Positions 19,111-59,033 of a stretch of DNA of 64,000 bases are shown here, piece by piece. A model generated the notes under the pieces. That model ran no database searches, was not told where the DNA came from, and was given only the letters and a program-made list of their open reading frames with translations. This stretch comes from Gluconacetobacter takamatsuzukensis (GTDB taxonomy: Bacteria; Pseudomonadota; Alphaproteobacteria; Acetobacterales; Acetobacteraceae). Position 1 is the first letter of the stretch, and each line of letters opens with the position of its first letter. A program made the translations under genes and the position numbers. The stretch spans positions 372,001-436,000 of the forward strand of contig NZ_JABEQK010000001.1 of NCBI RefSeq assembly GCF_014174275.1, in the 5' to 3' direction.

Positions 19111-19273
19111 GTTTATGCCCGGAAACGCGCGCTGGCGGCGATCCGGCGCGCGTTTACTGTGCTCCGATGCTCACGGCCCGTATGGCCGCTCCGCTTCGGT
19201 GCTCGGAAACGCACGACGGGCGCGGCCCCTTGGGCCGCTCTCGCTCGCCAGTCCGCGTTTCCGGGCACAAACT
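19111..19273 (+). repeat. Structured 3'-end repeat element, copy A
   Basis: Starts directly after the hslU TGA. The outer arms are AGTTTATGCCCGGAAACGCG at the left and its near-perfect reverse complement ending at 19273. Inside is the conserved core: CTGGCGGCGATCC, a CGGCC-CGTAT-GGCCG hairpin, a GTTTac/GGAAAC long-range pair, and a GCGGCCC-CTT-GGGCCGC hairpin, then CTCGCTCGCCAG closing with the CTGGCG. Element orientation is forward relative to hslU. The remaining bases to 19374 hold only the sufE leader. Confidence 0.85.
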
Positions 19274-19374
19274 GCGTGTTCACGGCGGGGGGCGGGTCGT
19301 GCGGGGTTCAAGCGGGTGGGGATGTGTTTTAGTCTTTGCCTGTTCATTTGCTTATTCTTTGTCAGGTAGCCTTG

Positions 19375-19818
19375 ATGACCGATCCCTTCGTCTTGCCCCA
19401 GGACGAGACTGCCGCCGCCGCGATTGCCGCGATCGGCGAGGAACTGGACCTGTTCGATGACTGGATGCAGCGCTACCAGTACATCATCGAACTGGGCCGG
19501 ACGATGCCGCCCTTTCCCGCCGAATGGATGGACGATGCCCATCGCGTGCCGGGTTGCCAGAGCCAGGTCTGGCTGGAAATGACGGCGCGCGACGGCGTGC
19601 TGTTCTTTGCCGGGGCGTCGGATGCCGCCATCGTCTCGGGCCTGGTGGCGCTGCTGCTGCGGGTTTATTCGGGGCGGAGCGCCGACGAGATCCTGGCGAC
19701 CGATTCCGGCTTCCTGCGCGAGCTGGGGCTGGTGCAGGCGCTGTCGACCAATCGCGGCAACGGGGTGGAGGCGATGGCGCGCGCCATCCGCCATGCCGCC
19801 GCGCAGGTCGCGGCGTAG
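19375..19818 (+). CDS. sufE: SufE family cysteine desulfuration protein
   Basis: 147 residues starting at the ATG in CTTGATGACC. SufE accepts persulfide sulfur from the cysteine desulfurase SufS and passes it to the Fe-S scaffold. The active-site cysteine lies in AHRVPGCQSQVWLEM, the family's diagnostic motif; GRTMPPFP upstream and the SGLVALLLRVYSGRSADEIL region fit as well. No other suf genes are in the window, so it is an orphan relative to a suf operon elsewhere. Confidence 0.92.
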   Translation: MTDPFVLPQDETAAAAIAAIGEELDLFDDWMQRYQYIIELGRTMPPFPAEWMDDAHRVPGCQSQVWLEMTARDGVLFFAGASDAAIVSGLVALLLRVYSGRSADEILATDSGFLRELGLVQALSTNRGNGVEAMARAIRHAAAQVAA

Positions 19819-19829
19819 GACCCGGCGCC

Positions 19830-20747
19830 TTATTGGTGGTCCGGAGGCTCGGCGTCGGCGTCGTACAGCACCTGTAGCACGACGCACCACGGGTAGCGTG
19901 GGTCGTAGCTGTGGCCGGTGGCGTCGGCCAGCTTGCCGTCCGGCCCGACGGGGACGTGGGTCAGGGCCACCGCGTCGTCGACATTGCCGCCGATGATGCT
20001 GATCTGGTGGCCGAAGGGCTGCCCGGTCTGGTTGGTGGCGACGACGATGCCGCAATGGGCGGGGAAACCGTATTGCGTCGGCAGGTTGGCGAAACGGACC
20101 GATTTGCTCGCACCCCGGCCGACGCAGATCAGGTCGCCCAGTGCCGGGGCGTAGGAGGCGGGGTCCTGCGCGCGGACGCCGCTTTCGGTGCCGGCGGCGG
20201 CGGCGTTGATATAGGTGGAATGGTTGGGGGAATAGGCGAAGCGGTCGTTCGCGCCGGCCACCCGCATGACGTAGGAAATGAAGGCCGCCGACCAGGCGAA
20301 CATGCCGTCATGGACATAGTCGGTGATTGCGCCGTCGGTATTGTGCTTGCCGGTCCAGGCGACCTCGCTTTCGCCCGGGTCCTGGCCGATCCACCAATAT
20401 TCGCCCACCCGCTGCCACAGGCCGGGCATGCGTTCCGGCTTGACGGTCGCGCTCTGGGCTTCGGGGCGCTGTTCGGGGTCGTCGTCATCCACCGGCTGGC
20501 CGAACATCCGCCATTCCCGCATCGCGATCGCCGCGACGCCCTGCCGGGTGAAGGGCTCGAAATTGCGGGTGGCGAAGTCGGGCACGTGGTCGTCGACCGC
20601 CAGTGCGCCCTGGCCGGCCGCATATTGCGCCGAGGGCGTGTGGGCGGGATGCGGAGAGGGATAATGCGGGGCGCAGGCTGCGAGGAGCGCCAGGGGCGCC
20701 ATCAGGGTGATCGTGCGTGATGCCGTCGGGGCGACCTTGCGCGACAT
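19830..20747 (-). CDS. DUF2272 lipoprotein
   Basis: 305 residues from MSRKVAPTASRTITLMAPLALLAAC. The signal peptide ends in a lipobox (LLAAC), so the protein should be a membrane-anchored periplasmic lipoprotein. The body matches the DUF2272 family: GRVGEYWWIGQD-like, MFAWSAAFISYVMRVAG, YINAAAAG, and PALGDLICVGRGA, a fold reminiscent of NlpC/P60 or CHAP amidase domains (Cys and His present as AHCGIVVA). A role in cell-wall turnover is an inference from that resemblance. The frame runs to 20813 but the lipobox fixes the start. Confidence 0.75.
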   Translation of the reverse strand: MSRKVAPTASRTITLMAPLALLAACAPHYPSPHPAHTPSAQYAAGQGALAVDDHVPDFATRNFEPFTRQGVAAIAMREWRMFGQPVDDDDPEQRPEAQSATVKPERMPGLWQRVGEYWWIGQDPGESEVAWTGKHNTDGAITDYVHDGMFAWSAAFISYVMRVAGANDRFAYSPNHSTYINAAAAGTESGVRAQDPASYAPALGDLICVGRGASKSVRFANLPTQYGFPAHCGIVVATNQTGQPFGHQISIIGGNVDDAVALTHVPVGPDGKLADATGHSYDPRYPWCVVLQVLYDADAEPPDHQ

Positions 20748-20904
20748 TGCTTCGCTTCTCCATTCAGCGCGGGCCGGCGCGTGTCGCGCATACGACGGCC
20801 GCCCCCTACCCATAGGACGCGGCGCGTGGCGGGAAAAGAGGCGCCATGGGCGGACGGGGTGGGCCGGCGGGACCGTTCCGGGGTGGCTAGCAATATTATG
20901 AAAT

Positions 20905-21020
20905 GTTTTTTCATTGTCGCGTGGCCGGTTCGGGCGCCCGATGGCGGTGACGGCTCGGCCGTCGCTTGCATACGAGGGAAAGACTTGGCCGGGACGCTTG
21001 CGCGTTCCGGTCCTTTTTTT
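20905..21020 (+). ncRNA. Candidate small RNA or attenuator leader
   Basis: The 331-base gap before the aldo/keto reductase holds an AT-rich -10-like TATTAT (20894-20899), then a string of stem-loops: palindrome TCGGGCGCCCGA (20930-20941), hairpin GACGGC-TCG-GCCGTC (20949-20963), and a strong intrinsic terminator at 20989-21020. The terminator has no open reading frame to end on this strand. A transcript of about 115 nt starting near 20905 would be a compact structured RNA. It could instead be an attenuated leader of the reductase gene. No known RNA family was recognised; the -35 region is weak. Confidence 0.4.
20989..21020 (+). terminator. Intrinsic terminator upstream of aldo/keto reductase
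   Basis: Nine-base-pair stem CCGGGACGC / GCGTTCCGG (one G-U pair) with a TTGC loop, followed by TCC and seven T residues (21014-21020). No plus-strand gene ends before it. Confidence 0.75.
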
Positions 21021-21078
21021 GTTCTATCCCTATCGATGAGTCCGCCCCCATGGGTGGGCGGGCAGGAAGGAGCATTTC

Positions 21079-22062
21079 ATGCCGATGGAAACCATTGCCG
21101 TCTCGGGCATTCCCTTTCCGGTCTCGCGCATTGCGCTGGGCACATGGGCGATCGGCGGCTGGATGTGGGGCGGGGCGGACGACAGCAAGGCCATCGCCAC
21201 GATCCACGAGGCGCTGGACCTGGGGATCAGCCTGATCGACACCGCGCCGGTCTACGGGTTCGGCCATTCCGAGGAGGTCGTGGGGCAGGCGCTGGAAGGG
21301 CGGCGCGACAAGGTGGCCATCGCCACCAAGGTCGGGCTGGACTGGAAGGACGGCAAGCCGTTCCGCAACTGCTCGGCCGCACGGATCCGGCAGGAAATCG
21401 AGGATTCGCTGCGCCGGCTGCGTACCGACCGGATCGACCTCTACCAGATCCACTGGCCCGACCCGTCGGTGCCGCTGGACGAGACGGCGCGGGTGCTGGA
21501 GGACCTGCATCGCGAGGGCAAGGTGCTCGCGCTGGGGGTGAGCAATTTCTCGGTCGCGCAGATGGAGCAGTTCAGCGCCGTGGCGCCGCTGGCCGCCGTG
21601 CAGCCGCCCTATAACCTGTTCGAGCGCGCGATCGAGGACGATATCCTGCCCTGGTCGGTCGAGCATGGCCTGGCCGTGCTGGCCTATGGGCCGCTGTGCC
21701 GGGGGCTGCTGTCGGGCAAGATGAATGCGGACAGCCATTTCGGTGCCGACGACCTGCGCAGTGCCGACCCGAAGTTCCAGGCGCCGCGCTTTGCCCAGTA
21801 TCTGGCGGCGGTCGGGGCGCTGGAGGCGTTTGCCAGGGAGCGGTTCGGCCGGTCGGTGCTGGCGCTGGCGATCCGCTGGGTGCTGGACCAGGGGCCGACC
21901 ATCGCGCTGTGGGGCGCGCGCAAGCCCGAGCAGATCGCCGGGATCGACCAGGCCTGCGGCTGGACGCTGTCGGCGCAGGACAAGGTGGAGATCGACCGGA
22001 TTCTGGCCGCGCATATCACCGATCCGGTGGGGCCGGAATTCATGGCGCCGCCCGGCGGCTGA
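21079..22062 (+). CDS. Aldo/keto reductase
   Basis: 327-residue NADPH-dependent oxidoreductase with a TIM-barrel fold. The catalytic tetrad is complete: Asp54 and Tyr59 in SLIDTAPVYGFG, Lys84 in IATKVGLDW and His125 in YQIHWPDPS. The C-terminal cofactor region includes ALWGARKPEQIAG. A Shine-Dalgarno-like GGAAGGAG precedes the ATG. It resembles the YajO/Tas-like subfamily that reduces aldehydes and sugar-derived ketones; the substrate is not determinable. An inverted repeat (GCCTGA...TCAGGC) directly after the stop probably serves as terminator for this gene and the convergent vapC remnant. Confidence 0.9.
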   Translation: MPMETIAVSGIPFPVSRIALGTWAIGGWMWGGADDSKAIATIHEALDLGISLIDTAPVYGFGHSEEVVGQALEGRRDKVAIATKVGLDWKDGKPFRNCSAARIRQEIEDSLRRLRTDRIDLYQIHWPDPSVPLDETARVLEDLHREGKVLALGVSNFSVAQMEQFSAVAPLAAVQPPYNLFERAIEDDILPWSVEHGLAVLAYGPLCRGLLSGKMNADSHFGADDLRSADPKFQAPRFAQYLAAVGALEAFARERFGRSVLALAIRWVLDQGPTIALWGARKPEQIAGIDQACGWTLSAQDKVEIDRILAAHITDPVGPEFMAPPGG

Positions 22063-22086
22063 TGCCTGAGACGCCGGCGCAGGTCG

Positions 22087-22474
22087 TCAGGCGACGGCGG
22101 TGAGGTCGGTCTGCGAGAAATCGTCCCCCTTGAACAGGAGGGGGAGATTTCGCTCTCTGGCGAGGGCGTAGCTGGCGCAATCGCCGAAATTCAGTCCGGC
22201 GGGGTGCCGGTCCTTGCCGAACCGAAGGAAGGCTTGGCGTGCCAGTGCGGCCTGGGTGGACGAGAAGGGGACGATGGCGATGTCGGCCGTCGATCAACTG
22301 GTCCAGGCCGCTCCAGGCATCTGGGGAGGGGCGGCGCCCGGCCAGTACCATGCTGGTTTTCAGCATGCTGACGCTGGAGAGCAGGCAGCGATCGGCGGTG
22401 ACGATCCGGGCAAGAAAATCGTCCGCATCCGATTCGCCGCGCAAGATCGACACCAGGACCGACGTATCCAGCAC
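22087..22474 (-). pseudogene. Frameshifted VapC-like PIN-domain toxin
   Basis: The first frame (GTG start at 22474) reads LDTSVLVSILRGESDADDFLARIVTADRCLLSSVSMLKTSMVLAG...LDQLIDGR, a PIN ribonuclease N-terminus. Near 22284-22290 the family continuation switches frame: DIAIVPFSSTQAALARQAFLRFG..., then AGLNFGDCASYALA and LLFKGDDFSQTDL, ending at a TGA at 22087-22089. The join needs one base removed or two added. In addition the conserved Glu of the LLEA motif is Lys (MLKTS). With the frameshift and the lost acidic residue the toxin is very probably inactive. A sequencing error could explain the frameshift but not the Glu-to-Lys change. Confidence 0.8.
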
Positions 22475-22476
22475 GA

Positions 22477-22824
22477 TTATGCCGGCAGGCCGTGATCGTC
22501 GTACAGATCGTCGTCGGTCAGGGGAGGATTACCCTGGAGCCGTGCGGCGCTGGCCCGGCTGATGGCCTGAAGGCGGGACAGCAGAGCCGCCTTTTGCTGG
22601 GGCGGCTGCCGACGGCGCACACCGTCAGGGATGAATTCGACCCCGGCCTGTTCGAGAGTCTGCCGGACGGTGTTGGTCGCGAGCGACGACACGCGGGAAC
22701 AGGTGCCCGGCGATTCCAGGCGCCGGATGGTGATGACCGAGACATGGGCACGCCTGGCCAGTTCCTGCTGCGGGAGATTCAGGAGGGCACGGGCTGCCCG
22801 GATCTGATCATGGGTCACGTCCAT
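22477..22824 (-). CDS. XRE-type antitoxin with VapB-like tail
   Basis: 115 residues. Residues 1-70 form a helix-turn-helix XRE domain (QIRAARALLNLPQQELARRAHVSVITIRRLE..., then TLEQAGVEFIPDGV). The C-terminus, ISRASAARLQ...LTDDDLYDDHGLPA, resembles the toxin-wrapping tail of Rv0623/PSK-type VapB antitoxins, which also end in a D-x-x-GLP motif. Such VapBs normally have a ribbon-helix-helix or AbrB DNA-binding domain, so this looks like a domain swap. Its stop is two bases before the vapC start. It probably binds the direct repeats overlapping its own start codon. Confidence 0.8.
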   Translation of the reverse strand: MDVTHDQIRAARALLNLPQQELARRAHVSVITIRRLESPGTCSRVSSLATNTVRQTLEQAGVEFIPDGVRRRQPPQQKAALLSRLQAISRASAARLQGNPPLTDDDLYDDHGLPA

Positions 22825-22852
22825 GATCGTTATATATCATTATGATCGTTAT
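22823..22852 (-). promoter_or_regulatory. Direct-repeat operator of the toxin-antitoxin locus
   Basis: Two identical 11-base repeats ATGATCGTTAT at 22823-22833 and 22842-22852 (19 bases apart) straddle an AT-rich TATATA stretch and overlap the antitoxin ATG. This is the usual arrangement for autorepression by an antitoxin; the binding protein is inferred. Confidence 0.55.
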
Positions 22853-22899
22853 GGATTAATGACGGGCAGGGGGAAGGGCTGCCCAGCTGACGTCTCTCC

Positions 22900-23490
22900 C
22901 TATTCCGGCAGGAAGCAGACGGACAGGCTGCGGACGCCCTGGGCGCCGCGGATCAGGACGCCCTGGATGTCGGCGGTGGCGGAGGGGCCGCTCATGAGCA
23001 CGCCGTAGCGGGCGGTGTGGAATTCCGGGCGCAGGTAGGCGGTGTGCATGCTGGCCGTGATCTGCGCCGGGTCCAGCAGGACGACCATATGCTGCGTGAG
23101 ATGGGCCAGGGCGTTGAGGTGGAGCTGGGCCTCGCTGAGGAAGATCGAGCCGGTTTCCGCGATGCCGAAGGCGGCGCGGACGATGGTGACGTCGACCGGT
23201 TCGGCGGCCTGCGGCGTGGGCAGGTCTTCGATCCGCACCGTGCCGGTGGCTTCGGGCACCAGCGAGCAGATCATCAGGCCCGGTTTGGGGAAGCGGCGGG
23301 CGATGGCCTGGTCGAGCGGTTCGTCGGGGCCGCGGTCCAGCATCGTGCCGCCCATCTGGGTCAGGCTGGCGCTGAACCGTTCCGGGCTGGCGTCGGATTC
23401 GCCCAGCAGGGCCGGGTCGGGCAGGGGGTGGGCGGCCGGGTCGGGGCTGTTGCGGCGCAGGGCGGCCAGGATGGTGTCGCGGGCGCTCAT
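22900..23490 (-). CDS. lutC: LutC-type lactate utilization protein
   Basis: 196 residues, beginning MSARDTILAALRRNSPD; an ATGA overlap with lutB fixes the start although the frame is open upstream. The LUD domain is recognised by VDVTIVRAAFGIAETGSIFLSE, AHLTQHMVVLLDPAQI and GVLMSGPSATADIQGVLIRGAQGVRSLSV. LutC is the third subunit of the LutABC iron-sulfur L-lactate dehydrogenase complex that oxidises lactate to pyruvate at the membrane. It is the last gene of the lut operon. Confidence 0.92.
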   Translation of the reverse strand: MSARDTILAALRRNSPDPAAHPLPDPALLGESDASPERFSASLTQMGGTMLDRGPDEPLDQAIARRFPKPGLMICSLVPEATGTVRIEDLPTPQAAEPVDVTIVRAAFGIAETGSIFLSEAQLHLNALAHLTQHMVVLLDPAQITASMHTAYLRPEFHTARYGVLMSGPSATADIQGVLIRGAQGVRSLSVCFLPE

Positions 23491-24905
23491 GCCTTGGTCT
23501 CCGCGTTGTCGGGTTTGCCGGGCTTGGCTGCCGGGCGGTTGCGGCGGTGCCAGCTGTGGAAGGTTTCCTTGACCGGTTCGGGGAGTTCGCGATTCTTGCC
23601 CCACGGGTTCAGCCAGTTGTAGAGCGCGAAGCGGGGCAGGGTGCCCAGTGCGGTTTCGGTGCCCGCGATGGCGGCGCGGTAGAGTTTGGGCTGGCCCATC
23701 AGCTTGCCAGCCATGTGCATGATCTCGCGCTTCACAAACGGCATCTGGTGGTGTTCGACCAGGACCTGCCGCCATTTGAAAAGCTGTTCGTGGATATTGA
23801 TCTTGACCGGGCAGACATTGGTGCAACTGCCGTTGAGCGTCGAGGCGTAGGGCAGCGTGCTGTATCTGCGCTCGTTGAAGGTGGGGTCGATGATCGCGCC
23901 GATCGGGCCGGAATAGACCGCGCCGTAGGACAGGCCGCCCGAGCGGCGGTAGACCGGGCAGGTGTTCATGCACGCGCCGCAGCGGATGCATTTCAGCGAC
24001 GTCCAGAAATCCGCCATGCCCAGCCGGGCGGAGCGGCCGTTATCGACCAGCACCACATGCATCTCGCCGCCATCCTGCGGGCCGCGGAAATGGCTGGTAT
24101 ACTGGGTGATGGGCGAGCCCAGGGCGCTACGCGACAGCAGGCGGATGAACACGCCGAGATCGGCCATGCGAGGCACGACGCGCTCGATGCCGATGGTGGC
24201 GATATGCACGCCGGGCACGGTGGCGCTGAGGTCCGCGTTGCCCTCGTTGGTGCAGACGACGAAGGTACCGGTTTCGGCCACGAAGAAATTGCCGCCGGTC
24301 ATGCCCGCGTCGGCGTGCAGGATGACCGGGCGCGCGGCCAGGCGCTGTGCCTCGGCCAGCTGGTGCGGGTCGTTGGCGTCGGGGTCGGTGCCGTAATGCT
24401 GGGCGAAGATGCGTGCCACGTCGCTGGTCAGCTTGTGGACCGACGGCACGACGATGTGGCTGGGCAACTGGTCGTCGAGCTGCTGGATGCGTTCGCCCAG
24501 GTCGGTCTCGGTGACGGTGACGCCCCGGGCGGCCAGGTAGGGGCGGAGGTCGCATTCCTCGGTCACCATCGACTTGCTCTTGATGAGCGTCTTCGCGCAG
24601 CGTGCGGCCAGGATTTCGGCCACGATGCGGTTATGCTCGGCGCCGTCGGCGGCCCAGTGGACGTGGATGCCGTTGCGTTTGGCGTTGCGTTCGAATTCCT
24701 CGAGATAATCCGCGAGGTTGGCCAGCGCGTGTTCCTTGATGGCGGAGGCGCGGCTGCGCAGTTCCTGCCATTCGGGCAGCAGGTGCATCTGGGCGTCGCG
24801 CTTCTGGCGCATGTCCCACAGCCTTGCATCGTGGAAGTCCAGATGCGGCTTGTCGGCGATGAAGGCGACGGCGGCGCCGGCGTGGTCGACGGGTTTTTCC
24901 TTCAT
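23487..24905 (-). CDS. lutB: LutB-type iron-sulfur lactate utilization protein
   Basis: 472 residues from MKEKPVDHAG; ATGA overlaps with lutA upstream and lutC downstream support this start over longer frames. An N-terminal LUD domain (about 60-300, with ECDLRPYLAARG and GNFFVAETGTFVVCTNEGNADL) is followed by a ferredoxin-type region with two cysteine clusters, CIRCGACMNTCPVYRRSGG and CTNVCPVKIN, that should ligate [4Fe-4S] clusters. A C-terminal DUF3390-like helical part follows. Electron-transfer subunit of the LutABC lactate oxidation complex. Confidence 0.94.
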   Translation of the reverse strand: MKEKPVDHAGAAVAFIADKPHLDFHDARLWDMRQKRDAQMHLLPEWQELRSRASAIKEHALANLADYLEEFERNAKRNGIHVHWAADGAEHNRIVAEILAARCAKTLIKSKSMVTEECDLRPYLAARGVTVTETDLGERIQQLDDQLPSHIVVPSVHKLTSDVARIFAQHYGTDPDANDPHQLAEAQRLAARPVILHADAGMTGGNFFVAETGTFVVCTNEGNADLSATVPGVHIATIGIERVVPRMADLGVFIRLLSRSALGSPITQYTSHFRGPQDGGEMHVVLVDNGRSARLGMADFWTSLKCIRCGACMNTCPVYRRSGGLSYGAVYSGPIGAIIDPTFNERRYSTLPYASTLNGSCTNVCPVKINIHEQLFKWRQVLVEHHQMPFVKREIMHMAGKLMGQPKLYRAAIAGTETALGTLPRFALYNWLNPWGKNRELPEPVKETFHSWHRRNRPAAKPGKPDNAETKA

Positions 24906-25651: not shown

Positions 25652-25732
25652 CGGGCTTTCCCCTCTCGGCGCCGCCGCCCGCGCGGGCCGTCATGATGGA
25701 CCGTTCCGGTCTTCTCGGTTTTGGACAGGAAA

Positions 25733-25762
25733 TTGTTATAACAAGTTGCCGGGCCGACTCAA
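25733..25762 (-). promoter_or_regulatory. Promoter and palindromic operator of lutABC
   Basis: On the minus strand TTGAGT (25757-25762), 16 bases, then TATAAC (25735-25740) form a plausible sigma-70 promoter. The perfect 12-base palindrome TTGTTATAACAA (25733-25744) covers the -10 hexamer, a placement expected for repression. A lactate-responsive GntR-family repressor is a natural candidate, but no such gene lies in the window. The rest of the gap 25652-25796 shows nothing else. Confidence 0.5.
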
Positions 25763-25796
25763 CCGGCGGATTGTTCGGGGGAGCCTTCTTCGGTGG

Positions 25797-26147: not shown

Positions 26148-26231
26148 GGTCGTGGTCCCTGGTTTCTGTGCCCCGGCCCGTCGTGCCGGGAGGAGCGCGC
26201 GCAGGATAGCAGCCCTGCGTGCCGGCTTACA

Positions 26232-26260: not shown

Positions 26261-26362
26261 TTCAGACAAGGGGCGTGCCTGGATGACGGGGCGCCGGGAT
26301 GAAGGCGGGCTGTGCGCCCGCTTGTGCGATATCGCGTTCAGCCAGGGAGAAGACGCATAGCC

Positions 26363-27650: not shown

Positions 27651-27814
27651 CAGAGGGTGGTCGGAAATGTGGGCTGATGAGCGAGAGCGGCCCGCAGGGC
27701 CGCGCCCGGCGTGTGTTTCCGAGCACCGAAGCGGAGCGGCCTGACGGGCCGTGAGCGCCGAAGGGGAGGAAACGCGTGCGGATCGCCATTAGCGGCGCTT
27801 CCACGGGTCACGCG
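27651..27814 (-). repeat. Structured repeat element, copy B (tandem, incomplete)
   Basis: Shares with copy C the 3'-side arm CAGAGGGTGGTCGGAAATG and the whole core (GAGCGAGAG, GCGGCCC-GCA-GGGCCGC hairpin, GTGTGTTTCC, CGGCC-TGACG-GGCCG hairpin), but its own 5'-side arm (read on the minus strand) is not complementary. It therefore looks like a 164-base tandem duplication of copy C that has since degenerated. Confidence 0.8.
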
Positions 27815-27981
27815 CAGAGGGTGGTCGGAAATGTGGGCTGGTGAGCGAGAGCGGCCCGCAGGGCCGCGCCCGGCGTGTGTTTCCGAGCACCGGAGCGGAG
27901 CGGCCTTATGGGCCGTGAGCACCGAAGCGCAGGGAACGCGCGCCGGATCGCCACCAGCGTGCATTTACGACCACCCTCTCA
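27815..27981 (-). repeat. Structured 3'-end repeat element, copy C
   Basis: On the minus strand it begins at the TGA (27981-27979) of the small secreted protein gene. The 5' arm AGAGGGTGGTCGTAAATG pairs with AGAGGGTGGTCGGAAATG (read on the plus strand at 27816-27833). The core contains both hairpins, with loop CATAA in CGGCC/GGCCG and GCGGCCC-TGC-GGGCCGC. Together with copy B it fills the 357-base gap after cbpM. Confidence 0.85.
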
Positions 27982-28326
27982 GTCGTTGCGGCTTAGGGGG
28001 AGGTTGACCGTCTGGCCGGGCTTGGTGCCCTTGATTGTCAGGGTGGCGCTGTTGGCGGAAACCAGCTGGAACGTGACCAGCGGGTCATGGCCCGGCGATT
28101 GCAGTTCGGCCTTGCCGTGGGGGGCCAGCGTGACCTCGTGCGGGGCGTAGGTGTGCAGCTCGTCGGGCAGGGTGACCTGGACCTGATGGTGGGCGTCGGG
28201 CGCGGCGACCACGACCGGGGAGAGGCCCATGGCGGCCCATTCGCCCGTAAAGGGGCTGGCGGCGGCGCGGGCCTGGGTGGCGGACAGGGCCAGCAGCGCG
28301 GCGGCAATGGCGTAAAGGCGGGGCAT
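27979..28326 (-). CDS. Small secreted protein of unknown function
   Basis: 115 residues with a signal peptide (LYAIAAALLALSATQARAA). The mature region is beta-rich (VQVTLPDELHTYAPHEVTLAPHGKAELQSPGHDPLVTFQLVSANSATLTIKGTKPGQTVNLPL), suggesting a small immunoglobulin-like or lipocalin-like periplasmic protein. No family recognised. It follows the efflux operon on the same strand with 37 bases between, so it may be its last gene. Repeat element copy C starts at its stop codon. Confidence 0.6.
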   Translation of the reverse strand: MPRLYAIAAALLALSATQARAAASPFTGEWAAMGLSPVVVAAPDAHHQVQVTLPDELHTYAPHEVTLAPHGKAELQSPGHDPLVTFQLVSANSATLTIKGTKPGQTVNLPLSRND

Positions 28327-42832: not shown

Positions 42833-44029
42833 TCAGCGCGACCGCAGGGCCGCGAGGCCGCGATCGAGGTCGTCTTTCAGGTCGGCGATGTCTTCCAGAC
42901 CGACCGAGAAGCGGATCGCGCCGTCGCTGATGCCCAGGCGTGCCCGTTCCTCGGGGCCGATCTTCATGTGCGTGGTGGTGGCCGGGTGGGTGACCATGGA
43001 GCGCGCGTCGCCCAGATTGTTGGAGATCGCGATCAGGCGCAGCGCGTTCATGAAGGCGAACGCGCCCTCCTTGCCGCCTGCGACCTCGAACGCCACCAGG
43101 GTGGAGGCGTCGCTCATCTGGCTCCGCGCCAGGTCGTATTGCGGGTGGTCGGCGCGGCCGGGATAGAAGACGCGGGTCACGCCCTCGGCGGCGGCCAGGT
43201 GGTCGGCGACGGCGGCGGCGTTTTCGGTCATGGCCCGCACGCGCAGCGGCAGCGTTTCCAGACCCTTCAGCATCACCCACGCATTGAAGGGCGACAGGGC
43301 GTTGCCGGTGTTGCGGGTAAAGGGTTGCAGCGTGTCGGTGATCCAGTCGCGCCGGCCCAGCACCGCGCCGCCCAGCACGCGGCCCTGGCCGTCGATATGC
43401 TTGGTGCAGGAATAGACGACCACGTCGGCGCCCAGTTCCAGCGGCTTCTGGTACAGCGGGGTGGCGAAGACATTGTCCACCACCACCAGCGCGCCGGCCG
43501 CGTGCGCCAGTTCGGAGATCGCGCGGATATCCAGGATTTCCAGCATCGGGTTCGACGGGCTTTCCAGCAGCACCGCCGCCGCCGGGCGGGACAGGGCCGT
43601 GGCCCAGGCATCGAGATCGCGGCCGTCGACGAATTCGGTCTCGACACCGTAGCGGGGCAGCAGGTTGGCGACGATCCAGTGGCAGGACCCGAACAGCGCG
43701 CGCGATGCCACCACCCGGTCGCCGGCCTTGACGTGCGCCAGCAGGGCCGAGGAGACGGCGCCCATGCCCGTGGAGGTGGCGATGCAGGCCTCGGCACCCT
43801 CCAGGTCCGCCAGGCGGGATTCCAGCGCCGCGACGGTGGGGTTGCCGAAACGGCTGTACTGGTAATGGACCACGTCGCCGGTGAAGGTGGCCTCGGCCTG
43901 CTCGGCATTGTCGTAGACGAAGCCGGAGGTGAGGAACATCGCCTCGCTCGTCTCGCCGAAAGGCGTGCGCTCGACGCCGGCATGCAGCAGGCGGGTGGCG
44001 GGGCGGTAGGCGGTGGAATCAGTGCTCAT
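42833..44029 (-). CDS. metZ: O-succinylhomoserine sulfhydrylase
   Basis: 398 residues starting [21 protein letters not shown]-dependent Cys/Met metabolism enzyme that makes homocysteine from O-succinylhomoserine and sulfide. Internal aldimine Lys210 in [31 protein letters not shown] and the glycine-rich [13 protein letters not shown] phosphate-binding region are intact; the C-terminus has [22 protein letters not shown] riboswitch lies about 140 bases upstream, matching repression by S-adenosylmethionine in many alphaproteobacteria. Confidence 0.93.
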
Positions 44030-44167
44030 CGTCAGTTCCCGGAACAAAACCGTCAGGAGGCCGAGGCTGGGAGCATCCGGGTGACGAACCGGTTCCGTGG
44101 CCCCGCGTCCCGACGCGGAAATCCGACCGTGGAAACCGTGACGCCCGCGGAGTCTGGCGGTGTCAGG

Positions 44168-44224
44168 CCTCTTTAGCGCGTCTGTTTAACCTCGTCGCAA
44201 GCCGGCCGATCCAAATCACGAGGG
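44168..44224 (-). promoter_or_regulatory. SAM-II riboswitch upstream of metZ
   Basis: On the minus strand the leader contains the SAM-II hallmarks in order: CGTGATTTGG, CGGCTTGC, TTAAAC and GCTAAAGAGG. The P1 stem is CCTCGT (44223-44218) paired with ACGAGG (44195-44190). SAM binding should fold the pseudoknot and lower metZ expression. A candidate promoter lies just upstream: TTGACG at 44283-44288, 18 bases, AATAAC at 44259-44264. The remaining ~140 bases to the metZ ATG hold a CCGCGTC-GG-GACGCGG hairpin without a T-run. Confidence 0.88.
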
Positions 44225-44312
44225 CCCGTGGGCCCCCGTGGGGGCTGCGGACGACAGGGTTATTGCGGATCGCAGGGCTGCTCGTCAACCATGTGGGGTG
44301 GCGGAGGATGGA

Positions 44313-44353: not shown

Positions 44354-44427
44354 GCGGGTGTAGTTCAATGGTAGAACGGCAGCTTCCCAAGCTGCATACG
44401 AGGGTTCGATTCCCTTCACCCGCTCCA
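44354..44427 (+). tRNA. tRNA-Gly (anticodon CCC)
   Basis: Cloverleaf with acceptor GCGGGTG/CACCCGC, D-arm TAGTTCAATGGTAGAA, anticodon stem GCAGC/GCTGC with loop TTCCCAA (anticodon CCC, reading GGG codons), T-arm GAGGGTTCGATTCCCTTC and an encoded CCA end at 44425-44427. A structured repeat element begins directly after, its arm overlapping the CCA. Confidence 0.96.
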
Positions 44428-44593
44428 GCCCTGTTCGTAAATGCGTGCTGGTGGCGATCCGGCGCGCGTTTTCTGCGCTTCGGTGCTCACGGCCCATAAG
44501 GCCGCTCCGCTCCGATGCTCGGAAACACACGACGGGCGCGGCCCGTGCCGGGCCGCTCTCGCTCACCAGCCCGCATTTCCAAACAGGGCTTGG
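44428..44593 (+). repeat. Structured 3'-end repeat element, copy D
   Basis: Follows the tRNA CCA without a gap. The arms are CCAGCCCTGTTCGTAAATG (from 44425) and, read as reverse complement at the far end, CCAAGCCCTGTTTGGAAATG. The core has CTGGTGGCGATCC, CGGCC-CATAA-GGCCG, and an extended GCGGCCCG-TGC-CGGGCCGC hairpin. Orientation is forward relative to the tRNA. Confidence 0.85.
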
Positions 44594-48282: not shown

Positions 48283-49044
48283 TTATCGCGGCCAGCTGGC
48301 CGCGATCCGTTCCGCCAGGTCGTCCAGGATCGATTGGGTGAGGTCCGCGACCTGGTCGTCGGTCGTGGCGGGACCCTGGCGGGTGAGGGTGGCGCGCTGG
48401 TGGATCAGCGGCTGGTGTTCGTCGCGGGGGACGATCGACCAGTCGGCGGCCAGCGACGCGGTGCCGTCATGCGCGATGTCCAGCCGGCTGATATTCACCG
48501 CCAGGCGCCAGGTCGCGGGCAGGACCTGCGGCTGGTCGGTCACGAACAGGTCGGTGCGGCTCTGGGCGAGGCGCGCGGTGATGAGGTCGGTGGCGCCGAG
48601 CGACAGGCGGCTGGCCCAGCGGCCGGTGGCGCTGCGTTCGATCCGGTTGCCGTCGCGGGCGATCAGGTCCTGGCCATCGAGATAGTCGGGCAAGGTGATG
48701 CGGGCGACCGTGACGGTCGGCGTGGTGGAGGTGACGCTGCCGACCGGCACCGCACCGGTCGCGATGGCCGGCGCGCCCAGCGTGTAGAACCGTACCGGCG
48801 GCGAAGCGCAGGCGGCGAGCATGGCCGGAAGGGCCAGCGCGGTCAGCCAAGCCGGAACGCGGCGGCTTTGGAATGAAAAAGACTGTTCTGCCAGCCGGTC
48901 TGCTGAGCGAGAGTGCCGCGCAGCGGCACGCCCGGCGTGGGTGCGCGAGCACCGAAGCGGAGCGGCCTTGATGGCCGTGAGCACCGGAGCGCAGCGGACG
49001 CGCGTCGGATCGCCGGCAGGCCGGCTGGCAGGACAGTCTTTCAT
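48283..49044 (-). CDS. PqiC/ABC-auxiliary lipoprotein; N-terminus made by a repeat element
   Basis: The conserved part begins at RRVPAWLTALALPAMLAACASPPVRFYTLGAP, a lipoprotein signal with lipobox LAAC, and continues as an ABC-type transport auxiliary lipoprotein (VARITLPDYLDGQDLIARDGNRIERSATGRWASRL, DDQVADLTQSILDDLAERI). It belongs to the Mla/MCE lipid transport operon as outer-membrane partner. The only usual in-frame start codons upstream are the ATG overlapping the mlaD stop (ATGA) and a GTG, both inside repeat element copy E. A 70-residue element-derived extension would then precede the lipobox, which should hamper export. The true start is uncertain. Confidence 0.7.
   Translation of the reverse strand: MKDCPASRPAGDPTRVRCAPVLTAIKAAPLRCSRTHAGRAAARHSRSADRLAEQSFSFQSRRVPAWLTALALPAMLAACASPPVRFYTLGAPAIATGAVPVGSVTSTTPTVTVARITLPDYLDGQDLIARDGNRIERSATGRWASRLSLGATDLITARLAQSRTDLFVTDQPQVLPATWRLAVNISRLDIAHDGTASLAADWSIVPRDEHQPLIHQRATLTRQGPATTDDQVADLTQSILDDLAERIAASWPR
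48872..49042 (-). repeat. Structured 3'-end repeat element, copy E
   Basis: On the minus strand it starts at the mlaD stop. Arms ATGAAAGACTGTCCTGCC and, at the far end read on the plus strand, ATGAAAAAGACTGTTCTGCC, continue into GGCCTGC/GGTCTGC. Both core hairpins show compensatory changes relative to other copies: GTGCCGC-TGC-GCGGCAC type instead of GCGGCCC/GGGCCGC, and GTCCGC/GCGCAC instead of GTTTCC/GGAAAC. The far arm ends in AGTCTTTTTC, the only copy with a T-run. It is open throughout in the frame of the downstream lipoprotein gene. Confidence 0.82.
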
Positions 49045-50015
49045 GGGCGGCGTCCCATCAGGAGGAGTTGCGGATTGCGTTCCACGTCGCTGGCGAAGCC
49101 GCGCAGGGCGGCGGCGGCGGCGGACAGGTCGCGCAGGGTGGAGTCGATGTTCGCGCGGTCGGCCGAGCGGGGCGAGGTGATGTCGTGCAGGGCCGACAGG
49201 CTCTCGCGGGCCTGGATCACCGTGTCGTTGGCGTTGTGCAGCACTTCGTGCAGGTCGGCGCCGCGGGCGTCGAGCTGCTGGGTGCCGGTATTGGCCAGCC
49301 GGTCGATGGCCGTCAGCGTCGTGTCCAGCCGCTGTTCCAGGTTCTGGATGGCGTGGGTCGCGCTGTCGACGGCGATGCGCGAATGGTCGGAGGTCTGCTT
49401 GACGCTGTCGACCAGGGGCGGCAGGTCCTGGTCCAGCCGTTCGGCCAGCTGGCGGATGCTGGCCAGGGCGGCCTGGGCGTTGTCGGCCAGTTCCTTCAGG
49501 GGAAGCTGGGTCAGGGTTTCCTGCACCTTCTGGATCGCGGACTGGCGGGTCGGGATTTCGACCTGCTTGCCGGTCACGATGTCGGGGTGGAGCACGGCGG
49601 GGGCGGAGGGGTCGAAATCGAGGTCGATCTCGGACTGGCCGGTGACGAAGCTCTGCATGTTCAGCGACGCGCGCAGCCCGTGGTCGATCATGCTTTGCAG
49701 GCTCAGGCTGCGGTGGGTGCCCGAGGTGCCGGCGATGGAGATGTTGTTGGGCTGGAGTGCGACCGCCACCGGAATATAGGCGGCGTGGGTGCGGGCATCA
49801 TAGGTGATCGAGATGGAATCGACCGCACCGACCCTGACCCCCCGGAACGTGACCGGGGCGCCGATGGTCAGGCCCGATGTCGAGCCCTGGAACACCACGG
49901 TGGCCTGCCGCGTGGGCGAGAAAATGTTGAAATTGCCGAAGAAGACCAGGGCCCCCATGCCCAGGGCCACCCCTCCGACGACAAAGGCGCCAACGATCGT
50001 TTCTCGGTTTGCCAT
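49041..50015 (-). CDS. mlaD: MlaD/MCE-domain lipid-binding protein
   Basis: 324 residues. One N-terminal membrane helix (IVGAFVVGGVALGMGALVFFG), then the MCE domain (ATVVFQGSTSGLTIGAPVTFRGVRVGAVDSISITYD), and a long C-terminal helical region (about 160-310) typical of MCE proteins that form hexameric rings or tunnels. It binds and passes phospholipids between inner-membrane MlaFE and the periplasm. Three bases after mlaF, followed by the lipoprotein gene. Confidence 0.92.
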   Translation of the reverse strand: MANRETIVGAFVVGGVALGMGALVFFGNFNIFSPTRQATVVFQGSTSGLTIGAPVTFRGVRVGAVDSISITYDARTHAAYIPVAVALQPNNISIAGTSGTHRSLSLQSMIDHGLRASLNMQSFVTGQSEIDLDFDPSAPAVLHPDIVTGKQVEIPTRQSAIQKVQETLTQLPLKELADNAQAALASIRQLAERLDQDLPPLVDSVKQTSDHSRIAVDSATHAIQNLEQRLDTTLTAIDRLANTGTQQLDARGADLHEVLHNANDTVIQARESLSALHDITSPRSADRANIDSTLRDLSAAAAALRGFASDVERNPQLLLMGRRP

Positions 50016-51954: not shown

Positions 51955-52139
51955 AGCCTCTCCATATCGCAGGGCATCCCGTGGCGGGGTCTGGAAAAAG
52001 GTGGGCAGGCGACGGGGCGCCCGTTGGCGGGTCCTGTCTCCTTATCAGATGGGCACCGTCCGGCAAGGGGGCGGGGGGCCGGGCGGGACGGTTGGAGTGT
52101 GGGACGGGCCGCCGCCCGCGCGTATTCCGCGATGCGCTC

Positions 52140-54555: not shown

Positions 54556-54576
54556 GCGGGGCGCGCGCCGCCCGCC

Positions 54577-55314
54577 CTATTGGTGGCGGAAGGTCACGAC
54601 CAGCACGTCGCGATAGGCGGGTCTTGCGGGGTCGATCGGCCGGACGGCGGTGACGCCGTGATAGACGCGGTTATCGTCGACCAGGGCGGCGTCCAGTGGG
54701 TCGGTCAGGGTGAAATGGCCGACCGGGCGGCGATGGAGGTCGTGGATCGTCGTCTCGCCGCTGGCCACGTTCTGGCGCTGGACCATCAGGACCAGCACCC
54801 AGTCCACGCCGTCGCGATGGAGGCCTTCGGGCGTCGGCTCGCCGGGTTCGCCGGCGCGGGCCTCGATGCGGAACTGGTGGATTTCGACGTGCCAGGCGTC
54901 GGGGCGGCGGTCGGGCGGCGTGAGGTCCGTGACCAGGCGCCGCATCAGGCGCAGGATCGCGATGAGGGCGGGGTGGGTGCCGATGGCGGGTTCCACCGGG
55001 CTGAACCAGCGTTCGATCCCGCCATTCAGCTCGTTGTAATCGCGGCTCTGGTAATGGGGCTGGTGCTTCTTGCGCTCGATGCCCTGTGCCGAGACCGTGT
55101 AGGTGGCGTGCCGGCGGCGGCGGTAGCGGCCGCCGTCGGCCATGTAGCGGTCCAGCCCCAGCCGGTTCCAGCTTTCGGCGAATCCGTCCCAGTCGGCCAG
55201 GCCGTATGGCGCCAGCAGGGCATGCGTCGTGGGGGCGTGCAGGCAGGCGAAGCCGTCCTGCGCCAGGGGGGATTCGACGCCGGCGAGGTCGGCCGGGAGG
55301 GGGGTGTCATTCAT
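54577..55314 (-). CDS. 2-oxoglutarate/Fe(II) dioxygenase family protein
   Basis: 245 residues of the 2OG-Fe dioxygenase family represented by PF10014 (BsmA/isoleucine hydroxylase-like). The iron triad is seen as His and Asp in EGLHRDGVDW and His in RVYHGVTAVRP, the latter followed by the Arg-containing 2OG-binding segment. RRRRHATYTVS and HYQSRDYNELNGGIERWFSPVEP are typical family blocks. Members hydroxylate free amino acids or act in stress and biofilm responses. Overlaps the mechanosensitive channel gene by 8 bases, so they are translationally coupled. Confidence 0.8.
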   Translation of the reverse strand: MNDTPLPADLAGVESPLAQDGFACLHAPTTHALLAPYGLADWDGFAESWNRLGLDRYMADGGRYRRRRHATYTVSAQGIERKKHQPHYQSRDYNELNGGIERWFSPVEPAIGTHPALIAILRLMRRLVTDLTPPDRRPDAWHVEIHQFRIEARAGEPGEPTPEGLHRDGVDWVLVLMVQRQNVASGETTIHDLHRRPVGHFTLTDPLDAALVDDNRVYHGVTAVRPIDPARPAYRDVLVVTFRHQ

Positions 55315-57856
55315 GCGGCGGGTCCGGTTGGAGGGGCGCCGGCGCGGTGTTGGTATTGGCGGGCGGCGCCGGCTCGGCCTGTCCGATCAGGAAGGGCGAG
55401 GTGCCGAGATTGGTCATCATCGAGATGGAGGTGGGGGTCGGGAATTTTACCCCTTCGGCCACCATGCGCAGGCCCAGGCGCCGATAATATTCGCGCGACA
55501 CCTTCCATTTGCTGCCCGGCGTGGTGCGGAACGACCCGATGAATTTCGCGCCGTTGCCGTCGGCATTGTCGACGCCGAGGAAGGTGAAGTCGGACAGGAT
55601 CATCGGTGCGAACGCGGTATCGGCCCGCATGTCGGTCACGACTGCCGCCAGCACGCCGGCCACGCGGTCGGGGTTTTCGCTGAGGTCGAGCATGAAGCTG
55701 ACGATGACGACATTATAGTCGCGCGAGGTGTTGGCAATCGAGGTGACGGACGAGAACGGGATGATGTGCACGTCGCCCGAGGTGGTCCGCAGGCGCAGGG
55801 TACGGATGGACAGATGCTCGACCGTGCCGGACACGCCGCCGGCCGTGACCCAGTCGCCGACCTGCATGGCGTTTTCCACCAGCATGAAGAAGCCGGTGAT
55901 GAAATCCTTGACCAGGCTTTGCGAGCCGAAGGCGATCGCGGCGCCCATGATGCCCGCACCCGTCAGCAGCGGGGCCACGTTCAGCCCGATCTGCGACAGG
56001 GTGGTGACGGCGACGATGATGACGATGACCGTCAGCAGCACGGTCCGGATGATGGGCAGGACCGTGCGCAGGCGGATGGCGCGCGAGACCTGCTCGCTGC
56101 TTTCGAAATGATTGATCTGGTTCTGCAAGGCGGCGTTCGCGGCCTCCCACACCACGATGGCGACCGTGAAGGCGATCATGATCGACAGGATGGCGGCGAC
56201 GATGCGCGTGCCCAGTTCGCCGTGCAGGAAGAAGGCGACGGCCGGGATGCCCCAGGCCTGAAGCAGGATGACGACCGTGACGAAGACCAGCAGCGCCGAC
56301 AGGGAGCGCCTGGCATACGGATAGTAGTAATCGGCCCGGACCCGCAGGCCGGGATAGCGGGCCTCGACATCGTCGCTGATATGGAACAGCCGGTTCTGCG
56401 CGCCGAAGAGCAGGAGGGAGAGCATGCGCGAGACGACGATGACGACGATGGTCATGACAGTGGTGCGCCAGATCCAGGCATAGCCGCCCCGGACATGGGT
56501 TGCCCAGACCAGCCACAGGGCCATGTCGAACACCATTGCCGGCAGCCACCAGAGCTGGGCCAGCCGGCTGACGAAGAGCCAGAACGAGCTTTTCTGGAAG
56601 CGGGCCGGCGGGTGCAGGGCGGCGGCCACCTGATGGCGGATGCGCCAGATGAACACCGCGATCATGAGATGTTCGGCCAGCACCAGCGCGCGGATCAGGG
56701 CCTCGGTCCCGCGCGGGGCGAGGTGGAACAGGCCGCCCAGCGTGGAGAGGCAGACCACGATCGAGGGCATGGCGACCAGCACGTTCCACCAGCGGGTGAC
56801 GATGCGGGCCGTGCGGTCGGATGCGCGGCACAGGCGGATGGTGGGCGATTTCGGCACCAGGACGGTTTCGACCAGCAGGTAGATGCCGCGGGCCGCGGCA
56901 TAGGCGTTGGCCAGGGTGAGCGTGACCAGTTCGGCCTGCTCGCTGCCGCCGAGGAAGGTGGCGCCGGCATAGCCGACGCCCAGGAACAGCGCCACGGGCA
57001 GCAGCTTGGTCAGCAGATGCAGCAGCGAGAAGGGAATCCGGCGGATGATGCGCAGGGTTTCGACCTGCTTGCGGTCGTCCTGGCGCCTTGTGTCCTGGAC
57101 CGTCCGTTCGGCCTGGGTTTCGCCGGTGGGGGTGGGGGCGTCGTCCTCGGCCTGGACCTGGGCCGCGCGCTGGTTCAGGCGGCGTTCGGCGTCGACCGCG
57201 CGGGCGGTGATGCTGGCCAGCGGCCGGCGCAGCGCGAGCGACAGGCCGCGTTCGGCGGCCATGGCGAGGAGGATGATCAGGCCCGCGCGGCCGAATGCGT
57301 CGAACAGGGCGTGCCGCGAATCCGGATCGGACAGTTCGGTGCGGAACCAGTGGCCGACGAAGGCCAGGTCGGCGAAGAGGGCGGCGAATTCGCGCGCCTG
57401 ATGGACGACGCCGTTGCGCATGGTCGACAGTTCGTCCAGCACGTCGCTGCCCACGCTGTCGGGTTCCAGCCCCACATCCGATTTGTCGGCGGATGCGCCG
57501 GCCGGGCGGGCGGGGGCAGGCGCCGGTGCGGCCGGGGGGGCTGCGGGGCGCGGGGCGGGAGGCGTGGCGGCGGGGGCCTGCGGCAGGCCGTTTGCGATCG
57601 CGCTGAGGGTGCGGGTGAATTCGGCGCGCTTCTGCGGGTCATTCAGCACGCCCAGGACCTGCTGTGCCTGCTGGGCGGTCATGGCGGGGGGCGGCGATTG
57701 CGACGTGGACGGGGGCGGGGGTGCGGCATCGTCGGCGTGGCCGGCGGCCGACGGCAGGACGAGTGCGCCGAGAAGCAGGAGCAGGATCGGCATCAACCGC
57801 CATGGGCGCCGTCCGGCGCGGGGAAAGGAAGGGCCACGAACGGGGAAGACCGACAT
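55307..57856 (-). CDS. Large MscS-family mechanosensitive channel
   Basis: 849 residues. A signal peptide (LMPILLLLLGALVLPSAAGHA), a Pro/Ala-rich periplasmic region with a helical part (to about 200), then many membrane helices (about 11 in total) leading to the C-terminal MscS core. The pore helix and beta domain are recognised by NVAPLLTGAGIMGAAIAFGSQSLVKDFITGFFMLVENAMQVGDWVTAGGVSGTVEHLSIRTLRLRTTSGDVHIIPFSSVTSIAN. It protects against osmotic downshock, as the YbiO/MscK-like large channels do. Length and topology are of that extended type. Confidence 0.9.
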   Translation of the reverse strand: MSVFPVRGPSFPRAGRRPWRLMPILLLLLGALVLPSAAGHADDAAPPPPSTSQSPPPAMTAQQAQQVLGVLNDPQKRAEFTRTLSAIANGLPQAPAATPPAPRPAAPPAAPAPAPARPAGASADKSDVGLEPDSVGSDVLDELSTMRNGVVHQAREFAALFADLAFVGHWFRTELSDPDSRHALFDAFGRAGLIILLAMAAERGLSLALRRPLASITARAVDAERRLNQRAAQVQAEDDAPTPTGETQAERTVQDTRRQDDRKQVETLRIIRRIPFSLLHLLTKLLPVALFLGVGYAGATFLGGSEQAELVTLTLANAYAAARGIYLLVETVLVPKSPTIRLCRASDRTARIVTRWWNVLVAMPSIVVCLSTLGGLFHLAPRGTEALIRALVLAEHLMIAVFIWRIRHQVAAALHPPARFQKSSFWLFVSRLAQLWWLPAMVFDMALWLVWATHVRGGYAWIWRTTVMTIVVIVVSRMLSLLLFGAQNRLFHISDDVEARYPGLRVRADYYYPYARRSLSALLVFVTVVILLQAWGIPAVAFFLHGELGTRIVAAILSIMIAFTVAIVVWEAANAALQNQINHFESSEQVSRAIRLRTVLPIIRTVLLTVIVIIVAVTTLSQIGLNVAPLLTGAGIMGAAIAFGSQSLVKDFITGFFMLVENAMQVGDWVTAGGVSGTVEHLSIRTLRLRTTSGDVHIIPFSSVTSIANTSRDYNVVIVSFMLDLSENPDRVAGVLAAVVTDMRADTAFAPMILSDFTFLGVDNADGNGAKFIGSFRTTPGSKWKVSREYYRRLGLRMVAEGVKFPTPTSISMMTNLGTSPFLIGQAEPAPPANTNTAPAPLQPDPPHE

Positions 57857-57912
57857 GCCTGTGTATTACCTCCTGGAGGGATGGCCGGGATTGGACCGGA
57901 TCGTCACGCAGG

Positions 57913-57964
57913 GCCTGACTGGACATGCGCGCTTCGGCGATCCGGCGCGCATGTCCAGTCAGGC
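57913..57964 (-). terminator. Perfect 20-bp hairpin after thiM
   Basis: Arms 57913-57932 and 57945-57964 are exact inverted repeats of 20 bases (GCCTGACTGGACATGCGCGC), separated by a 12-base loop. On the minus strand it begins two bases after the thiM TGA. The loop with flanking bases contains GGCGATCCGGCGCGC (plus strand), a 15-base match to the start of the repeat-element core. No T-run follows. Confidence 0.7.
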
Positions 57965-57966
57965 TC

Positions 57967-58806
57967 TCAGGGGGCGAGGATAGCGATCCGCGCTTCTCGC
58001 GTCACCGTGTCGCGGTCCAGATGATACAGCTCGTCCAGCAGGCGGACCTGAAGGCTGCCCGGTCCGGCGGCGTGGCGGGCCGCGCGTTCGCCCGCCACGC
58101 CGATCAGGACCATGGCGTGCGCGCAGGCGGCCGTCGCATCGGGTTCCACGGCCAGGCAGGCGCCGGCCAGCGCGGTGGCGGTGCAGCCCAGGGCGGTGAC
58201 ACGCGTCATCATCGTGTGCCCGTTCGCCACCGTGGCGATGCGCGTGCCGTCGGTGATGTAGTCGGTCGCGCCGCTGATGACGATGCTGGCGCCGGTGGCC
58301 CGGGCCAGCCGGCCGGCCGCGTGCAGGGCCTGTTCGGCGGCTTGCAGCGAATCCACGCCGCGCCCGGCGGGGGGCGGTTCGGCATGGCCTTCGCGCAGGT
58401 GGGCGAGGGCGAGGATTTCCGAGGCGTTGCCGCGAATCGCCCGGGGGGCATGGGCCAGGCTCTCGACCGCCACGCGGGCGCGGAAGGGCAGGGCGCCCAC
58501 CGCCACCGGATCGAGGATCCATGGCGTGCCGGCCGCCTGTGCCGCGCGGGTGGCGCGGGCGATGGCGGCGGCCTGCGGCGCGGTGATGGTGCCGATATTG
58601 ACCACCAGCGCGGCCGCCATGGCGGCGAAGGATTCGACTTCCTCCTCGGCGCTGACCATGGCGGGGGAGGCGCCGAGGGCGAGGAGGGCGTTGGCCGTGC
58701 TGTTCGCGGCCACGATGTTGGTGATGTTGTGGACCAGCGGCGTGGCGGCGCGGATGCGCTCCAGCGTCGTGGCCACGGCATCGGGGGTGAAGAGGATGTG
58801 CGACAT
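57967..58806 (-). CDS. thiM: Hydroxyethylthiazole kinase
   Basis: 279 residues from MSHILFTPDAVATTLERI. Ribokinase-like fold with family blocks PLVHNITNIVAANSTANALLALGASPAMVSAEEEVESFA, WILDPVAVGALPFR, IRGNASEILAL and VISGATDYITDG. It phosphorylates 4-methyl-5-(2-hydroxyethyl)thiazole in thiamine salvage. No thiE or thiD neighbour and no TPP riboswitch can be seen upstream; instead repeat element copy F fills the leader. ATP/thiazole-site residues appear intact. Confidence 0.93.
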   Translation of the reverse strand: MSHILFTPDAVATTLERIRAATPLVHNITNIVAANSTANALLALGASPAMVSAEEEVESFAAMAAALVVNIGTITAPQAAAIARATRAAQAAGTPWILDPVAVGALPFRARVAVESLAHAPRAIRGNASEILALAHLREGHAEPPPAGRGVDSLQAAEQALHAAGRLARATGASIVISGATDYITDGTRIATVANGHTMMTRVTALGCTATALAGACLAVEPDATAACAHAMVLIGVAGERAARHAAGPGSLQVRLLDELYHLDRDTVTREARIAILAP

Positions 58807-58867
58807 GGGCTCACGCTCCCGCGAAGGTCGACCGCCGGCTTTTCGGGTAACTTTGCAAACAGCCTGC

Positions 58868-59033
58868 GAGAACCTGACCGTCAATGTGGACTGGTGAGCG
58901 AGAGCGGCCCGTCTGGTCGCCTCCGCCGTGGGTTTCCGAGCATCGGAGCGGAGCGGCCTTATGGGCCGTGAGCACCGAAGCGCAGGAAACGCGCGTCGGA
59001 TCGCCGCCAGACCGCATTGACGGTCAGGTTCTC
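58868..59033 (-). repeat. Structured 3'-end repeat element, copy F
   Basis: On the minus strand it starts at the TGA of the RDD gene (59034-59032). The arm GAGAACCTGACCGTCAATG is perfectly repeated in inverted form at 58868-58886. The core has CTGGCGGCGATCC, GTTTCC/GGAAAC and CGGCC-CATAA-GGCCG intact, while the GCGGCC hairpin is weakened in this copy. It lies between the RDD gene and thiM. Confidence 0.85.

Follow-up and report, generated by a model that had tools for sequence, protein, structure and literature searches.

Repetitive extragenic palindromes (REPs) lie near the 3' ends of open reading frames (ORFs) and can supply stop codons, as GTAG REPs can do with the stop TAG (PMC3733652). 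REPs of Escherichia coli that are located within 15 nt of a stop codon affect translation (PMC12306157), and ribosome stalling, effects on mRNA decay and closeness to ORF ends have been reported for stop-proximal REPs (PMC12306157, PMC3733652, PMC5082802). Palindromic repeats of another kind, the CcrM-associated intergenic repeats (CIRs) of about 110 bp with conserved GANTC sites, are described from Caulobacter, Brucella and their relatives (PMC2229807). The present study deals with a dispersed palindromic element of Gluconacetobacter takamatsuzukensis, of which six copies, named A to F, are found in a stretch of 64,000 nucleotides (contig NZ_JABEQK010000001.1, positions 372,001 to 436,000), referred to here as the window. 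It seems to be a REP-like gene-end element of a kind not yet catalogued: almost always it starts at the base immediately following a stop codon, in one case following the CCA end of a tRNA, and almost always it has the same direction as the gene that it follows. Searches of the open-licence literature on palindromic repeats of Gluconacetobacter and the Acetobacteraceae gave no description of the family, although an earlier account elsewhere is possible. On balance, the copies probably represent a REP-like palindrome that is non-autonomous, can still move and is housed at the 3' ends of genes, where it may act as a barrier.

Position of the element relative to stop codons

Copies from the genus Gluconacetobacter were placed relative to genes called with a purpose-written codon-usage gene finder trained on the Gluconacetobacter genomes. 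The upstream gene has the same orientation as the element in 107 of 114 copies (107:7; 94%), and none of 118 copies lies inside a predicted gene. When downstream tandem units are excluded, 80 of the 99 first copies start at a sense stop codon, and several of the other 19 are incomplete loci or the tRNA case. The last base of the stop codon falls on one and the same model column in about 50 cases and on columns 3-7 in most. The stops beside the elements (TGA 65, TAA 8, TAG 7; n = 80) were compared with genome-wide usage (TGA 70%, TAA 16%, TAG 13%), which indicates that the stop is mostly the host's own. The RDD-family protein and LpxC have the same C-terminus with or without the element, so that their stop codons pre-date the insertion; since protein length is unchanged, it is ruled out for these two genes that the element supplied the stop after random insertion near the gene end. 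The freshest insertion nonetheless changed the stop from TAG to TAA. In G. tumulicola, a convergent gene pair at about 82,700 (L248; G007:C15) apparently has a separate sense element for each gene at its own stop.

A second reading, insertion of the core into the loop of pre-existing terminators, arose from one G. diazotrophicus copy with a terminator-like outer stem. It was rejected: the majority of arms conform to a common consensus from which they diverge one pair at a time, and the ordinary 8-bp hairpins of the same genome start elsewhere than at the stop codon.

The alternative that survives best is an ordinary miniature inverted-repeat transposable element (MITE) which is moved in trans by a transposase into CTGA-like targets and is found at stops only because other insertions were harmful and were lost. 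A C precedes the stop in 56 of 71 copies as opposed to 45% genome-wide (p = 2e-8), and the same trinucleotide follows the right arm in 9-10 of 71 copies against a background of about 1, with TGA recurring there in 10 of 71, which hints weakly at a target duplication of 3 bp. There are also clear insertion events with empty sites, at copy F, at lpxC and in G. tumulicola/G. asukensis. However, intergenic CTGA outnumbers CTGA stops by about 2:1 (742 and 344), and from the motif alone about 32% of first copies would be expected at stops, whereas about 81% are observed (p = 1e-21), the share lying at about 81-90% overall. The frequency of the CTGA target does not explain the register. Restricted to convergent gaps, the ratio of copies at stops to copies elsewhere is 28:4 compared with 88:148 for CTGA (p = 5e-8); such gaps hold no promoter that could be damaged and are flanked on both sides by 3' untranslated regions (UTRs). 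The use of TAA and TAG stops and the copy that begins at a tRNA CCA end likewise speak against a CTGA-directed MITE, which we regard as possible but unlikely.

Mobility and decay

The element is mobile. Copy F splits the short gap between the RDD gene and the next gene in this species only, and in 12 other genomes with the RDD gene the element is absent from the locus and the RDD protein ends at the same residue. At lpxC, named here after the ftsZ-lpxC gene order, this genome and G. diazotrophicus carry the element, whereas others lack it or retain a remnant, and the protein ends at the same residue. A new element has come to lie between a stop codon and an older copy in G. tumulicola and G. 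asukensis. G. aggeris has the older element only; its upstream coding flank of 200 nt matches that of G. tumulicola without a difference, but the stop codon is TAG without the insertion and TAA with it. Tandem arrays range from one to four units at one stop in close species (four at L159 on G010:C1, one and a partial unit at L174, one at L189), and this variation in unit number could be used as a typing marker. The automatic scan for filled and empty sites was mostly confounded by tandem copies. The two G. diazotrophicus assemblies (G003, G012; apparently PA1 5), which count as separate species in the genome set, belong to the same strain with 99.7% identity where compared and are therefore of no use for an empty-site comparison.

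Candidates for the mobiliser were also considered. A REP-associated tyrosine transposase (RAYT) was rejected, as PF01797 (Y1_Tnp) is found in 0 of 14 genomes of the genus, while 5 of 14 control genomes match. A reverse transcriptase as common mobiliser was rejected because RVT_1 occurs in only 4 of the 14 genus genomes, and carriage by plasmids or phages because the element has no match in plasmid and phage collections. No autonomous parent turned up in the loci read, where no systematic search for one was made, and the arms differ between loci.

The six copies in the window

The earlier note, made from the sequence of the window, had reported six copies; re-reading and an automatic repeat search, which recovered all six with identities of 73-94%, place them where it put them, while their edges turned out to be sharper, with the stop-side edge of copy C at 27978, that of copy E at 49040 and that of copy F at 59031. 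The exact sense registration to stops and to a tRNA 3' end had escaped it, as had the mobility and the class-wide distribution. Copies A and D are on the + strand and copies B, C, E and F on the - strand. Copies A, C, E and F start right after stop codons, D follows a tRNA, and B is a tandem unit.

Copy A (19111-19273, +) begins at the first base after the TGA stop (19108-19110) of hslU (17794-19110, +; Pfam AAA_2/AAA). Its outer arms lie at 19111-19129 and about 19253-19272, its apical hairpin CGGCC-CGTAT-GGCCG at 19174-19188 and its second hairpin GCGGCCC-CTT-GGGCCGC at 19222-19238, all on the + strand, and an orthologue with paired arm changes is present at the same hslU stop codon in three congeners. 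Copy C (27815-27978, -) begins right after the stop codon at 27979-27981 of a sense gene (27979-28326, -), and copy B (27651-27814, -) stands in tandem with C as the second unit, farther from the stop; this locus holds only a single copy in G. asukensis and G. aggeris. Copy D (44428-44593, +) begins immediately behind the CCA 3' end (44425-44427) of a tRNA-Gly with encoded CCA (44354-44427, +; RF00005, 72.9 bits). Copy E (48872-49040, -) follows the stop (49041-49043) of an MlaD-like gene (49041-50015, -; PF02470) and lies within the operon, ahead of the ABC_trans_aux lipoprotein gene; four congeners have this copy too, their arms differing by paired changes. Copy F (58868-59031, -) follows the stop (59032-59034) of an RDD-family gene (59032-59646, -; PF06271).

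Two further features of the window were recorded. An ordinary SAM_alpha riboswitch (58.6 bits; 44152-44232, -) lies a short way upstream of the gene for an O-succinylhomoserine sulfhydrylase (42833-44047, -), and a separate 114-nt direct repeat with 71% identity (14959-15072 and 16545-16658) is located within two adjacent long ORFs, probably as duplicated domains of related genes.

Fold and covariation

The element is about 165 bases long in the window and 120-175 nt in the family as a whole. An outer stem, with a median of 16 pairs counted from the stop codon and at most one mismatch, leads to a three-way junction, from which a long imperfect arm with an apical hairpin and a short G+C-rich hairpin emerge; the latter is absent in several other genera. 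The folding energy is -107 kcal/mol for copy A and -102 kcal/mol for copy C (z about -9), and none of 200 shuffles was as good. In 64 diverse copies, standard pairs occupy 95.9% of cells compared with about 40% when the partners are slid by 1-3 columns, a control which keeps the relatedness of the copies. Two-sided changes, present in 39 of 54 pairs, number 461 against a mean of 104 in shuffles, and on all five measures none of 500 shuffles was as good; in these shuffle controls, relatedness among copies is not fully corrected. The stems named in the earlier note are found again when the copies are compared, including the changes on both sides in copy E, and the structured, strongly covarying dispersed family that it proposed is borne out by the fold scores and the 64-copy covariation.

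The note had further proposed selection on, or replication through, a folded RNA or single-stranded DNA. The covariation behind this is real. However, G-U cells (37) are fewer than A-C cells (71; p = 0.001, uncorrected for relatedness), which is the opposite of what is expected under selection for RNA pairing and leaves RNA selection unsupported, and nothing points to replication through a folded intermediate. Pair changes are nearly all from one Watson-Crick pair to another, and a single orthologous locus can alter several pairs with compensation on both arms. At a response-regulator locus, three species have different perfect arms between flanks that are 87-92% identical. Such multi-pair changes of both arms at one locus are the pattern that template switching makes without selection, and template switching in replication can create and maintain such stems (PMC8794818). 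It is therefore likely that the complementarity of the arms is upheld by template switching and not by selection. Covariation alone does not demonstrate selection on an RNA, and the family may serve as a warning that even strong covariation need not have this meaning, because template switching can yield it.

Possible role at mRNA 3' ends

Owing to the register and the sense orientation, every transcript leaving the gene would meet the hairpin. That the element is transcribed, and what it does in the cell, we infer from its position and from the REP literature. According to the proposed mechanism, the element would insert and be retained at the very base that follows a stop codon or a tRNA CCA end, oriented like the upstream gene, and the RNA would form a Y-shaped hairpin from the first base after the stop, with the outer stem, the three-way junction, the conserved apical arm and optionally the second hairpin. 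As a 3'-UTR structure, this hairpin could halt 3'-to-5' exonucleases, restrict the access of Rho and possibly slow terminating ribosomes, as stop-proximal REPs of E. coli do. A barrier at the mRNA 3' end is thus the putative role. With its many natural copies, the family offers ample data for studying the influence of 3' ends on expression in operons such as ftsZ-lpxC or mlaD-lipoprotein.

A large intrinsic transcription terminator would also sit directly behind genes, and at ftsZ the element takes the place of a T-run terminator, since the outgroups have an ordinary one and the element-bearing clade has none in the region read. However, TTTT is found at the stem base in only 14 of 71 copies, and many copies lie in operons, with sense genes on both sides in 69 of 118 and the downstream sense gene often 20-300 nt away. 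Because T-tracts are rare and intra-operon copies numerous, an exonuclease or Rho barrier is preferred, and a terminator appears improbable.

Several observations weigh against the proposed mobile gene-end element with a barrier role. About 10% of the single copies lie away from any recognised stop, and the many intra-operon copies limit a role in termination. The A-C excess over G-U argues against strong selection for RNA pairing. At locus D, two congeners have a decayed copy at the same place and two others a remnant, so that the function is dispensable at least there.

Distribution and origin of the register

BLAST with one core found at least 46 places with the element in this Gluconacetobacter genome, not all candidates being scored. 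Copies are present in every Gluconacetobacter genome and in some other genera of the family, and the named carriers of the exact 39-base core are all Gluconacetobacter. The covariance-model search suggested in the earlier note found relatives in the Acetobacteraceae, and the covariation exceeded that in the shuffle and slid-partner controls described above. Model R1 matches 29 of 150 Acetobacteraceae genomes (23 of 102 genera), a patchy distribution. Outside Gluconacetobacter, frames were assessed solely from their length; on this basis, the element starts at or near the stop of a long sense frame in about 13 of 17 readable loci of other Acetobacteraceae genera. Class-wide, 12 of 224 sampled genera matched R1, including small genomes of 42-54% G+C; these matches share the apical core, and several begin right after stops of long frames. 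Model R2, which comprises the apical core alone, gives strong matches in several more families of the Alphaproteobacteria, whereas all its matches beyond the class are weak. In 13 of the 15 readable loci of R2, a sense frame 180 or more codons long terminates close to the stem base, in many cases no more than 0-3 bases away. As the calibration of both models was short, weak E-values are rough. This applies to the weak apical-core matches outside the Alphaproteobacteria (f176, f182, f191, f194; E 1e-8 to 1e-4; eleven near-identical in G514), which may be due to chance or to a distant relative.

Rfam gave no counterpart: the window shows only the tRNA and SAM_alpha, and three loci searched up to E 1 gave no relevant match. 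In another genus, two more long hairpins (L044:1285-1420 and 2448-2556) have sub-threshold matches to plant or animal miRNA families in Rfam and are possibly other palindromic repeats. The family accounts for many unannotated alphaproteobacterial hairpins, and the covariance models are supplied for annotation.

A structured cis-regulatory or trans-acting RNA family under selection for RNA structure would account for the strong covariation, the strict sense orientation, the unpaired apical bases conserved across the Alphaproteobacteria and the orthologous copies retained across the genus. However, there is no G-U excess, the flanking genes have no common function, copies are lost or decayed at some loci, some tandem units have unpaired arms, and the occurrence within the Acetobacteraceae is patchy, all of which makes such a family distinctly improbable. 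We attach an equally low probability to a class-wide mobile element which recognises the stop codon as such and not a DNA motif, with integration guided by translation termination or an RNA 3' end. Single-base precision at stops, in one orientation and throughout a class, raises the question of what recognises a stop codon in DNA. Integration at the RNA level, guided by the 3' end of an A-site-cleaved stop codon or a mature tRNA, is very unlikely: the exact register is the same at three stop codons and the tRNA CCA end, and the freshest insertion altered its stop next to an identical upstream coding flank, but the genus shares no reverse transcriptase, there is a single tRNA case, and no enzyme for such a route is known.

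Comparison with known systems

The preferred reading, a mobile gene-end element, is closest to REPs, including the RAYT-associated kinds tagged with GTAG or CGTC, which are likewise dispersed palindromes near ORF 3' ends and occupy chiefly convergent and codirectional gaps. However, REPs are single hairpins of 20-40 nt, whereas the element has 120-175 nt, a three-way junction and a conserved apical core; it also differs in its exact zero-offset register, its sense orientation in 94% of copies and the lack of a RAYT (Y1_Tnp) in the genus, and CGTC REPs are reported to be missing from the Acetobacteraceae. Because it differs in RAYT and size, the element is not filed as a REP. RPEs are likewise palindromic elements of the Alphaproteobacteria, of 100-150 bp, but they lie in frame within genes, in contrast to 0 of 118 copies here. 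ERIC, RIME and YPAL elements resemble the family in size class and in being dispersed and intergenic, and are set apart, by description, by its exact stop register and class-wide core. The attC sites of integron cassettes are structured palindromes behind a gene whose arms are conserved in structure and not in sequence; the element, by contrast, lies behind syntenic housekeeping genes (hslU, ftsZ, lpxC), outside cassette arrays. CIRs are described as two arms and a linker, whereas the element is closed by an outer stem, and GANTC occurs in none of 19 sampled Gluconacetobacter copies. Its relatives in other genera are enriched in GANTC, with 5.9 per kb as opposed to 0.9 in the flanks (L203, L207-L211, L259, L261, L263, L273). 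On account of these GANTC-rich relatives outside Gluconacetobacter, the CIR elements of Caulobacter, compared by description only, are a serious candidate for kin of the element.

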